Below are positions 4,188 through 23,312 of a stretch of 39,222 nt of DNA, in pieces. Every line of letters starts with the position of its first letter. Positions within the stretch are counted from its first letter, which is position 1. The DNA comes from Calditrichota bacterium. Its GTDB lineage: Bacteria > Calditrichota > Calditrichia > Calditrichales > J004. Location: NCBI GenBank assembly GCA_024277115.1, contig JAJRVW010000015.1:1-39222 (forward strand), given 5' to 3'. The notes under the pieces are model-generated. The model ran no database searches. It was not told where the DNA came from and saw nothing but the letters and a program-made list of their open reading frames with translations. The translations under genes and the position numbers were made by a program.

Positions 4188-4511
4188 ATGGATTATAAAG
4201 TTGTTTTCTTCAATAAAAAAGTAGAAAAAGAGACGCTTGGTTTTCCTAAAGGAATTCTTGCAAATTTTATACATATTGTGGAAATGATAGAAGAATTTGG
4301 GGCCAACCTGGGTATGCCATATACATCGAAGATTGAGAAAGACCTTTTTGAGATAAGGGCAAAAGGTCCCGAAGGAATAGGCCGATCAATTTACTGTACA
4401 GAGAAAGGAAAGAAAATTATAATCCTACATTCTTTTCTAAAGAAAACACAAAAAGCGCCTAAACGCGAACTTAATATTGCACGAAAACGTTTAAAGGAGA
4501 TAAAAAAATGA
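4188..4511 (+). CDS. HigB-type (Gp49/RelE superfamily) toxin
   Basis: This 107-residue basic protein matches the phage Gp49-like HigB family. It has an N-terminal VVFFNKKVEKE strand-helix, a central LFEIRAKGPEGIGRSIYC strand pair with the conserved Arg, and IIILHSFLKKTQKAP, the family's strand plus the HxFxKKTQKxP signature. These toxins are ribosome-associated mRNA endonucleases that inhibit translation under stress. The toxin gene precedes the antitoxin, as is typical of HigBA, and its stop codon overlaps the antitoxin ATG in an ATGA arrangement. All signature residues are present, so it appears intact. Confidence 0.92.
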   Translation: MDYKVVFFNKKVEKETLGFPKGILANFIHIVEMIEEFGANLGMPYTSKIEKDLFEIRAKGPEGIGRSIYCTEKGKKIIILHSFLKKTQKAPKRELNIARKRLKEIKK

Positions 4512-4816
4512 GTGTTTCAACCTTTGAAAAATTTAAAAAAAAAGCCTTAGCCAACCCCGAGGTTAAAGAAGAGTATATTGCACTCTCACCTGCCTATGAA
4601 CTACGTAAAAAGTTAATCCGACTTCGTAAACAAGCAGGACTTTCTCAGGAACAACTAGCGGAAAAGCTCCATACAAAAAAGAGTAATATTTCTCGGCTAG
4701 AAAATGTTAATTCAAAAATTTCACCTACTATTTCAACTGTAGAAAAATATGCCCAAGCCATCGGGTTTCAGATGGAAGTCAGTTTTTCACCACTAACTCA
4801 AATTAATAAGAAATAA
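4508..4816 (+). CDS. HigA-type antitoxin, XRE-family HTH
   Basis: This 102-residue protein has a linker region (residues 1-30) followed by a Cro/CI-type helix-turn-helix at about residues 32-85: LRKQAGLSQEQLAEKL, then the recognition helix KSNISRLEN. It should bind and neutralise the upstream HigB and repress the operon through the palindrome at 4161-4180. The ATGA overlap with the toxin gene supports coupled translation. The LSPAYELR segment before the HTH is typical of antitoxins paired with Gp49-like toxins. Confidence 0.92.
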   Translation: MSVSTFEKFKKKALANPEVKEEYIALSPAYELRKKLIRLRKQAGLSQEQLAEKLHTKKSNISRLENVNSKISPTISTVEKYAQAIGFQMEVSFSPLTQINKK

Positions 4817-21249: not shown

Positions 21250-22167
21250 ATGCTTAACACTTTTAAAATTGGGCATTATACAGATAAAAAAAACGGTACC
21301 GGTTGTACGGTAATACTTCCCCCAAAAAACAATGTGTGCTCCGCTATGGCGATGGGCGCCTCGCCCGGAACACGCGAATATGCGCTCTTGCAACCCGATA
21401 AAAAAATAGAATCGATCAACGCCCTCGTTTTAACCGGAGGAAGCGCCTTTGGCTTAAACGCGGTTACCGGCATAGTTGATGAGCTGGAGGCCCGCAAGGA
21501 AGGCTACCAGACCCCTTTTGGCATTGTCCCCATCGTGCCGGCAGCTGTAATTTTTGATTTAAATATTGGAAACGGGAAGGTTCGTCCCGGAGAGCATGAA
21601 GGAAAAATGGCATTACAAAATTGTCGGTTTAATAATTTAGTATCCGGAAATATTGGTGCAGGTACCGGGGCTACCGTGGGTAAGTGGGCAGGTCTGGAAA
21701 ACGCCATGAAAGGCGGGCTTGGCATGGCACAGGTTGAGCATGGCAACTTAAAAGCCTGCGCAGTACTTGTTGTAAACTCGGTTGGGGATATTTTAGACAC
21801 GCAAAATAAAATTATTTCGGGAGCTCAAAAAAGTGGGAAGTTTATTGCCGAGGATAATCCTGAAAAACGTTGGGTCGAGCCTGTTCTGGGATTAGCGGAA
21901 AATACTGTATTGTGTGCCATCCTTACAAACGCTTCGCTTACTAAACAGCAAGCCCATTATTTAGCAGGCCGGGCACATTTTGGGATTTCAAAACGCATTG
22001 TCCCTTCACATACAAGTTATGATGGCGATGTGGCGTTCGTTATATCCAGCAAAGAAGTTGAAACAAATATCGATACATTAAGCGCCATAACCATCGAAGC
22101 AGTAGAGCAGGCTATTTTAAATGCCATTAAAAATACGGAAAATTTGTTTGGTGTTCCAGGCAGTTGA
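21250..22167 (+). CDS. P1/DmpA-family peptidase, 3' end inside a repeat
   Basis: This 305-residue member of the DmpA/OAT-like N-terminal-nucleophile superfamily is normally processed autocatalytically into two chains. It has LVLTGGSAFGLNAVTGI, FDLNIGNGK, the GNIGAGTGATVGKW loop and the VLVVNSVGD segment carrying the candidate processing site. These enzymes act as aminopeptidases on D- or beta-amino-acid peptides. The TGA (22165-22167) lies in the GTTGACGG that begins the compound repeat at 22163, so the last residue or two may have been replaced by the insertion. Family homologues usually run a few residues past GGVP. The gene is otherwise complete, with AGGA before the ATG. Confidence 0.88.
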   Translation: MLNTFKIGHYTDKKNGTGCTVILPPKNNVCSAMAMGASPGTREYALLQPDKKIESINALVLTGGSAFGLNAVTGIVDELEARKEGYQTPFGIVPIVPAAVIFDLNIGNGKVRPGEHEGKMALQNCRFNNLVSGNIGAGTGATVGKWAGLENAMKGGLGMAQVEHGNLKACAVLVVNSVGDILDTQNKIISGAQKSGKFIAEDNPEKRWVEPVLGLAENTVLCAILTNASLTKQQAHYLAGRAHFGISKRIVPSHTSYDGDVAFVISSKEVETNIDTLSAITIEAVEQAILNAIKNTENLFGVPGS

Positions 22168-22328
22168 CGGTTGTTTCGACTTCGCTCAACAACCTGTTTC
22201 TGGCTTCGCTCAACAACCTGTTTCTATCTGCGTTCACAACCTTGTTCCCACCTCTGTACCCTGAGCGAAGCCGAAGGGTACGGAGCAAGAATGAAAGGTG
22301 GGGCGAAGCCGAAAAGAATGGATCAAAA
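22163..22328 (+). repeat. Compound repeat, copy 1 (diverged)
   Basis: Begins GTTGACGGTTGTTTCGACTT and carries three units of about 24 bp, each ending in ACAACCTG or a variant; the third (TTTCTATCTGCG...) has diverged. Then come TTCCCACC and a palindrome, CTGTACCCT (22254-22262) with AGGGTACGG (22275-22283). The unit closes with GAGCAAGA, AAAGGTGGGG and GATCAAAA. A hairpin GGTTGTT / AACAACC is formed within the first unit. An extra segment near 22301-22318 is absent from copy 2. Same orientation as the copy at 22657. Confidence 0.9.
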
Positions 22329-22338
22329 TCGGTACAAT

Positions 22339-22644
22339 TCAAGGCCTATTTTTAAAATGACTTTCATTCTTACATTCGGCTAACCGATGCAACAAATCCG
22401 GATTATTATTAATTAGGGCTTCTTTCTTTTTTCTACTCCATCCTTGTACTTGCTTTTCCCGGTAGAATGCTTCATCTATCCGTTGGAATTCCTCGAAGTA
22501 AACTAATTTAACAGGTAGATGCTTACGGGTAAAATTTGCGCCCTCCCCTACTTGGTGTTGAGCGAGGCGTCTTTCTAAATACTTAGTGCTTCCGGTATAA
22601 TACATTCCATTTGCACATTCTAGTATATACATATATCCCTTCAT
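22339..22644 (-). CDS. Small GIY-YIG nuclease domain protein
   Basis: This 101-residue protein consists of one GIY-YIG domain: YMYIL (GIY strand), YYTGST (YIG strand), the catalytic Arg in LERRLAQHQ, and the metal-binding Glu in FYREKQVQGWSRKKKEALI. The start at 22644 has AAGAGG 4 bp upstream. An open frame extends upstream only through the repeat, which reads as repeated RNRLLSEV and is not protein-like. Such small GIY-YIG proteins are UvrC/homing-endonuclease relatives of unknown role that cut one DNA strand. Here the gene lies exactly between two direct copies of a structured repeat. The 3' end is 11 bp from copy 1. Confidence 0.9.
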   Translation of the reverse strand: MKGYMYILECANGMYYTGSTKYLERRLAQHQVGEGANFTRKHLPVKLVYFEEFQRIDEAFYREKQVQGWSRKKKEALINNNPDLLHRLAECKNESHFKNRP

Positions 22645-22656
22645 AAAACCTCTTAT

Positions 22657-22806
22657 GTTGACGGTTGTTTCGACTTCGCTCAACAACCTGTTTCTGACTT
22701 CGCTCAACAACCTGTTTCTGACTTCGCTCAACAACCTGTTCCCACCTCCGTACCCTGAGCGGAGCCGAAGGGTACGGAGCAAGACTGAAAGGTAGGGGAT
22801 CAAAAC
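22657..22806 (+). repeat. Compound repeat, copy 2 (well preserved)
   Basis: Begins GTTGACGGTTGTTTCGACTT. Three near-identical 23/24-bp units (TTTCTGACTTCGCT followed by CAACAACCTG) are followed by TTCCCACC and the perfect palindrome CCGTACCCT (22748-22756) / AGGGTACGG (22769-22777). It ends in GATCAAAA. Because the unit is 24 bp, the reverse strand is open and encodes repeated RNRLLSEV in frame with the nuclease gene. It lies immediately upstream of that gene's ribosome-binding site, so it may carry the gene's promoter or regulatory hairpins. Confidence 0.92.
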
Positions 22807-22830: not shown

Positions 22831-23295
22831 TTATTTATTTACATCATTCTTTATGATCTCATCAATGCGTTTATTGTCTTCCACACCATGTTCATCTACC
22901 TTATTATAACTACTGCCATACCCTTTATCCTGGCGAATTTGGTTGAGCTTGTTTTTCTTCATATAAAGTTCGGTTAAATTATCCGGGTCAAGGCCAACCA
23001 ACTGGCACTTACTCACCCAAAAATGCAGTTCATCAATCAGCTCCATGCGGATATTTTCCCAATCAATTTTTTCTTTATCTTTCCACCATTTCCAGGGCAG
23101 ATCATCTTCCATCTCAATAGATTCATGAATTTGTGCGCGGTTATAATTTAACAACCATTCTACCCGGTTTTTAACAGTATCCTTATCTTCTTTTTGTTGA
23201 TCACAGATTTCATCATAATCCAAACCGTGCCGTTCTTTTAAAATCCGTTTATTAAGTTCATGCTGTTTTTCAAATATTACACGTAAAAGATCCAT
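22831..23295 (-). CDS. Dimeric (all-alpha) dUTPase
   Basis: This 154-residue protein of the all-alpha NTP pyrophosphatase superfamily shows the dimeric dUTPase motifs in order: ESIEMEDDLPWKWWK (acidic Glu58 and Glu61), ELIDELHFW (Glu85, Asp88 or Glu89) and YMKKNKLNQIRQDKGY followed by EDNKRI. It hydrolyses dUTP to dUMP and PPi, keeping uracil out of DNA. The ATG at 23295 was preferred over the upstream TTG because GGGGAAG precedes it. It starts 17 bp after the inactive HtrA gene on the same strand. Some family members are phage-borne, but nothing else here suggests a prophage. Confidence 0.88.
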   Translation of the reverse strand: MDLLRVIFEKQHELNKRILKERHGLDYDEICDQQKEDKDTVKNRVEWLLNYNRAQIHESIEMEDDLPWKWWKDKEKIDWENIRMELIDELHFWVSKCQLVGLDPDNLTELYMKKNKLNQIRQDKGYGSSYNKVDEHGVEDNKRIDEIIKNDVNK

Positions 23296-23312
23296 TATCT
23301 TCCCCAAATTAT

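Follow-up and report, generated by a model that had tools for sequence, protein, structure and literature searches.

The kind of enzyme nearest to the one described here, judged by its description, is the Ssn family, reportedly introduced in 2025 as site-specific, single-strand GIY-YIG nucleases paired with the NTS repeats of Neisseria. Ssn homologues are said to have target sequences of their own in many bacteria, and the role ascribed to them is reportedly the modulation of transformation. Slx1 is a structure-specific nuclease of eukaryotes with the partner Slx4. We know of no repeat association described for the two solved UPF0213 proteins, and to our knowledge many families of palindromic repeats in bacteria have no known mobiliser. 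Text searches of one collection of papers found none linking GIY-YIG with REP-like repeats. A first-pass annotation of the DNA analysed here knew of no named system with its layout, a statement that is probably outdated given the reported pairing of Ssn nucleases with genomic repeats.

The window, a stretch of 39,222 nucleotides from the contig JAJRVW010000015.1 of a Calditrichota bacterium (4.97-Mb assembly in 255 contigs), was confirmed to carry a 101-residue GIY-YIG gene between two repeat copies of the same orientation (22163-22328, 22339-22644 and 22657-22805), as had been read from the letters alone. Its features are as follows.

21250-22167, plus strand: peptidase family S58 gene, flanking host gene.
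22163-22328, plus strand: repeat copy A, 166 bp, on the 3' side of the nuclease gene.
22169-22194, minus strand (predicted structured strand, TGAGCGAAGTCGAA): core hairpin of copy A, GGTTGT-TTCGACTTCGCTCA-ACAACC.
22195-22242, minus strand: two more 24-bp half-hairpin units of copy A (one intact, one decayed), by sequence reading.
22252-22285, plus strand: core hairpin of copy A in the opposite orientation, GTACCC-TGAGCGAAGCCGAA-GGGTAC.
22339-22644, minus strand: GIY-YIG nuclease gene, 101 aa, with ATG at 22644 and stop codon at 22339-22341.
22657-22805, plus strand: repeat copy B, 149 bp, on the 5' side of the nuclease gene.
22663-22688, minus strand: core hairpin of copy B, the same as that at 22169-22194.
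22689-22739, minus strand: two more 24-bp half-hairpin units of copy B, by sequence reading.
22746-22779, plus strand: core hairpin of copy B, CCGTACCC-TGAGCGGAGCCGAA-GGGTACGG.
22831-23307, minus strand: dUTPase_2 gene, flanking host gene.

Elsewhere in the window (4188-4816), adjacent ORFs of 107 and 102 aa resemble, from their translations, a RelE/HigB-type toxin and a helix-turn-helix antitoxin.

The nuclease matched the Pfam GIY-YIG profile (E = 1e-17) over residues 2-74 of 101 aa as a free-standing domain; no NCBIfam model was found for it. Y6, Y16, G18, R26, H30 and E63 are conserved, the catalytic Y6, Y16, R26 and E63 at 99-100% among the 179 GIY-YIG genes compared, and its clade is marked by C10, W69, K73-K74 and C91. 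A structure model from the single sequence (pLDDT 46) was not used; an AF2 model from a 30-sequence input reached pLDDT 91 and was matched best in the PDB by the UPF0213 proteins 1zg2 and 1ywl, then by Slx1. By its profile, its catalytic Y/Y/R/E residues and this predicted fold the protein is classed as a UPF0213-like, single-domain member of the GIY-YIG superfamily. A longer ORF of 154 aa with a TTG start (22339-22803) was rejected as the gene; it arises from reading into the repeat, and conservation points to the ATG at 22644 as the start.

Copies A and B share an ungapped match of 141 bp at 91% identity (22163-22303 and 22657-22797), and their boundaries were set by the ends common to both, GTTGACGG and GATCAAAA, as read from the sequence; the TGA stop of the peptidase gene sits in the first bases of copy A. 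Of the two lengths given in the first-pass annotation, 166 bp stands for the left copy, and 150 bp is corrected to 149 bp for the right one, which ends at 22805 (22806 being one base long). The three 23/24-bp units claimed for each copy were found as three 24-bp units, all intact in the right copy and two intact with one decayed in the left. The GGTTGTT/AACAACC hairpin, the palindrome and the shared ends were likewise seen in both, the former two as GGTTGT..ACAACC and CCGTACCC..GGGTACGG. Each copy thus contains two exact cores, TTCGRCTNCGCTCA, in opposite orientations, plus the half-hairpin units of 24 bp. When folding was compared with shuffled sequences, the palindromes folded much better than these (z scores of -3.8 and -4.6), and the GGTTGTT hairpin was weaker (z -1.9). 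The cassette is present once in its own genome, which has six exact cores, four of them inside the nuclease unit, so the repeat is not dispersed there; cores with at most one mismatch (19 sites including the 6 exact, vs 9 for the reversed pattern) were near chance and were not used.

The site of the cassette was compared with that of a genome of the same genus (G020), a comparison the first-pass annotation had suggested. In G020 the peptidase (77% aa identity) and dUTPase (89%) genes are adjacent, their stop codons 8 bp apart, and neither a GIY-YIG gene nor a hairpin was found at their junction. About 640 bp were accordingly gained in the window genome or lost in G020; the comparison is with one diverged allele (77% aa in a flanking gene), so neither the direction of insertion nor its boundaries are exact. 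The nuclease has its closest relatives outside its own phylum (Cloacimonadota 84%, Bacteroidota 70-84%, Ignavibacteria 81% and Treponema 79%) and the best homologue in G020 is 43% identical, which fits horizontal arrival. Phage and plasmid records contained only distant GIY-YIG relatives (<60%) and IMG/VR held none with close similarity to the window nuclease, so a phage origin is unsupported.

Association of nuclease and repeat was assessed at 80 nuclease genes from several phyla, 68-84% identical to the window protein. The exact core lay within 400 bp of the gene in 71 of the 80, hairpins inside the 3' end of the nuclease ORF included, the core alphabet having been picked after inspection of these same loci. 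Core density was 9.1/kb within 150 bp of the gene vs 0.06-0.17/kb more than 500 bp away, and the reversed motif did not occur at the relatives' loci. Same-strand flanking repeats (score ≥36) surrounded 36 of 73 nuclease genes vs 1.6% of 961 control intervals from the same loci, which excludes chance. In the downstream direction, the distance from the protein match to the start of the first core has a median of 14 bp, and at 39 of 69 loci this core begins ahead of the stop codon, so that there the repeat encodes the tail of the protein. In one assembly, two units (L026 and L028) are alike only over the gene and a 64-bp piece of the repeat, at 90% DNA identity. These comparisons support the view that nuclease and repeat form a stable pair across phyla.

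The hairpins of these relatives often stand in inverted pairs 30-70 bp apart and are dispersed in some genomes. Their 5-bp arms covary: positions 1-5 were paired in 93/89/91/76/63% of cases vs 54/34/40/54/34% after shuffling, and offset registers scored lower. The other strand of the core, TGAGCGNAGYCGAA, reads as a GC-GNA-GY mini-hairpin, in which position 7 is free and position 10 is C or T in 99% although it was left free in the search, permitting G-C or G.T on one strand only. In 9 hairpins both bases of the T1-A14 pair of TGAGCGNAGYCGAA are replaced together, giving C-G. Six bases ahead of the core (-6) stands a G that is retained in 328 of 344 hairpins, and the foot is YG (CG or TG in 285). 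GNA loops closed by G-C pairs form unusually stable DNA mini-hairpins (PMC4686876), and the TGAGCGNAGYCGAA pattern fits a folded single strand with such an inner GC-GNA-GY structure. Because the G.T option is confined to the TGAGCGNAGYCGAA strand, that strand is suggested to be the recognised one. Both orientations of the core are common upstream and downstream of the gene, which argues for a role at the DNA rather than the RNA level; at 57 of 69 loci the first core downstream shares one orientation.

The type of repeat changes with the nuclease. Proteins at least 65% identical to the window nuclease go with TTCGRCTNCGCTCA (67 of 86, arms ≥4 bp). Those 42-55% identical go with the loops TTCGAC-n-GCTCA, TTCGTCTNCGCTCA or TTCGATACG..CTCA or with a different, GTCATTC-type repeat; among still more distant nucleases the hairpin is rare. 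L162 belongs to a TTCGACAGGGCTCA clade and L160 to a TTCGATACG clade. The core label required 9 changes on a 179-gene tree vs 58.5 when shuffled (0/500); this tree has few alignment columns and many weak forks, and close copies inflate clustering. The data support a repeat type that follows nuclease phylogeny, and this parallel change suggests that the enzyme recognises its hairpin.

At the level of whole genomes the link between nuclease and core is loose. In a set of 198 Bacteroidota genomes, the median number of cores was 3 where a relative (E ≤ 1e-20) was present vs 0 where none was (p = 2e-6, relatedness uncorrected), and in the window's own phylum genomes with close nuclease relatives also carried more cores (p = 0.0016, relatedness uncorrected). 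All 35 genomes tested with a close relative had at least one core (range 1 to 220); for G013, G004 and G261, which carry close relatives, the genome total is 0-1 core. Copies of the repeat without the nuclease had been named beforehand as evidence against the pairing: core and gene stood together at the 71 loci counted above, and core-rich genomes without a close relative of the nuclease exist (G076, G177, G265 and G267). G076 has 195 cores and no nuclease relative at E ≤ 1e-5, and the other three have 28-37 cores. The 148 cores of G145 are mostly in inverted, REPIN-like pairs 60-70 bp apart, and only distant GIY-YIG relatives (E 2.5e-11) occur there; G046 has 160 cores and two copies of the nuclease. 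In such genomes without a close relative the hairpins may have outlasted their nuclease or be used by a different one.

Type I restriction-modification (RM) genes occur within 700 bp of 13 of the 80 relatives, which typically lie between hsdM or hsdR and hsdS. Loci of this kind with hairpins at the hsdS junction are L013, L022, L024, L032, L048, L050, L051, L052, L055 and L061; at L055 one ORF comprises the GIY-YIG domain, a repeat-coded linker and HsdS, and some cores lie inside the hsdS region itself. Separately, GIY-YIG genes of ~66-104 aa were observed to begin right after or near tRNA genes (Ser, Cys, Pro, Glu) and to be followed by copies of tRNA 3' halves whose stem is often remodelled (L005 and L006/L007 in the window's own genome; L190, L191, L180, L203, L205, L208 and L196 in relatives). 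Such units are in tandem at L205 and L006, and at L190, L193, L196 and L205 GC-rich mini palindromes (e.g. CCCGCCTTAGGCGGG) replace or interrupt the stems of the duplicated tRNA copies. In a separate GIY-YIG clade the genes have palindromic repeats of GTCATTC..GAATC type on their flanks, and some of these units are in tandem (L004 in the window's own genome; L167, L168, L169, L182, L257 and L261). Three tandem GIY-YIG genes with an exact spacing of 323 bp and identical scores were seen at G205:C1:1384625-1385507.

That nuclease and hairpin form a cognate pair on a portable cassette is well supported by sequence comparison. What the comparisons show directly is that the two are paired specifically, that the pairing shifts along the nuclease tree, that the hairpin covaries and that a relative has an empty site. 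A joint explanation, to which we assign a probability of about 0.6, is that the cassette combines a single-domain GIY-YIG nuclease with its own recognition hairpins in arrays and would spread by recognition, single-strand nicking and repair-driven copying. The nuclease would read the hairpin as a folded single strand, through outer arms of ~5 bp whose sequence is free, the core TGAGCGNAGYCGAA, its inner GC-GNA-GY mini-hairpin and the near-invariant G six bases before the core. It would nick the hairpin in single-stranded DNA, such as occurs at replication forks or follows DNA uptake, and repair or recombination at nicked hairpins would copy or exchange hairpins and occasionally the whole cassette. 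Binding, nicking, a preference for single strands and spread driven by nicking are what we infer from the sequence patterns. A wider generalisation, tentative and somewhat doubtful, is that small GIY-YIG nucleases drive a REP-like class of their own, comprising clade-specific folded hairpins (the GNA mini-hairpin, GTCATTC-type palindromes and tRNA-gene arms) on sub-kilobase cassettes that pass from phylum to phylum and also enter type I restriction operons ahead of hsdS.

The main rival holds that the nuclease recognises the hairpins without moving them, serving genome maintenance or DNA uptake by cutting single strands at the repeats as they enter the cell or are replicated, and that cassettes travel by ordinary recombination. 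It would match the role reportedly played by Ssn in transformation; direct repeats permit gain and loss through homologous recombination, and the single cassette of the window genome needs no active spread. We nevertheless consider it unlikely, since by itself it does not explain cassettes at new sites in hairpin-poor genomes, as in the window's own genome. A homing-type endonuclease that targets host sequence, with the flanking repeats as remains of copied target sites, is improbable. The GIY-YIG fold suits it, and related clades are flanked by tRNA 3' halves, as target duplication predicts; in the window clade it is disfavoured by the empty site of G020, which holds no hairpin copy and so indicates that the repeat came with the gene, the uninserted allele being a single diverged one that could also contain a non-hairpin target. 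Cassette sites are moreover diverse and not one allelic site. It is quite improbable that the nuclease is an accessory of type I RM operons that reshuffles hsdS via the hairpins and that the window copy is a stray: the 13 neighbouring loci, the hairpins at the hsdS junction, the L055 fusion and the cores in the hsdS region speak for such a role, but most of the relatives (67 of 80), like the window copy, have no type I RM gene within 700 bp.

Two further explanations were considered. The model in which a Y1/RAYT transposase moves the hairpins as REP-type elements, with the GIY-YIG gene a chance passenger, draws on their REP-like form (short, palindromic, often in inverted pairs and dispersed in some genomes) and on the Y1_Tnp genes present in many of these genomes. 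It is very improbable and largely refuted: no core occurred in 96 kb around 30 Y1_Tnp genes, the core-rich genomes G046, G076, G177 and G265 have no Y1_Tnp match, and the repeat class tracks the GIY-YIG tree. Least probable of all is that the hairpins serve only as transcription terminators or mRNA-stability elements of the nuclease gene. Their position immediately 3' of the gene and the prevailing orientation of the first downstream core are as expected of terminators, but both orientations are common on either side, many copies are not beside the gene, and the loop sequence, besides the stem, is strictly conserved and clade-specific.

If the portable-cassette explanation is correct, the window nuclease would be a testable candidate mobiliser of palindromic repeats that is not a transposase, and the same explanation would also account for the repeats found at hsdS and for those Bacteroidota proteins that contain peptides encoded by a repeat. 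The predicted recognition element is precise enough for an oligonucleotide order, and the natural nuclease/hairpin pairs offer a readout of site choice by a GIY-YIG enzyme of 100 residues.

Compared with known systems, the unit shares its catalytic domain and the idea of a self-propagating gene with I-TevI-type GIY-YIG homing endonucleases and differs from them in being without an intron, a separate DNA-binding domain or a single allelic target, and in having flanking repeats that travel along. Fold and catalytic residues are shared with UPF0213/YhbQ-type proteins (1zg2, 1ywl) and with Slx1, the latter unlike the window nuclease in working with Slx4 in eukaryotes. Like REP/RAYT systems (REPtrons), REPINs and BIMEs, the unit places a nuclease-type gene beside its own palindromic repeats (PMC2817692, PMC3116915, PMC3733652), and its hairpins resemble theirs in forming inverted pairs, in keeping one base constant at the foot of the hairpin and in being dispersed in some genomes. 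The catalytic domain is GIY-YIG and not HUH/Y1, the foot has a conserved YG and no GTAG tetranucleotide, and the 30 Y1_Tnp loci are without the core. The first-pass annotation's proposal of a GIY-YIG counterpart of REP/RAYT is partly supported, by the stable pair across phyla, the repeat type that follows the nuclease tree, the empty site and the absence of the repeat from Y1/RAYT loci; nicking of the repeat and its spread by the nuclease are predictions, and dispersal varies, reaching 220 copies in relatives vs the 6 exact cores of the window genome. As far as we know, nothing described matches the cassette form, the hairpin of GNA type with variable arms, or the settings beside tRNA genes and hsdS. 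With Ssn/NTS, as described, the unit has in common a small single-domain GIY-YIG protein and a genomic repeat; it is distinguished by repeats placed on both sides of the gene, as a cassette for which a relative shows an empty site, by a variable-arm hairpin with a GNA-type core as its putative target, and by its occurrence in Calditrichota-like bacteria, Bacteroidota and other phyla.
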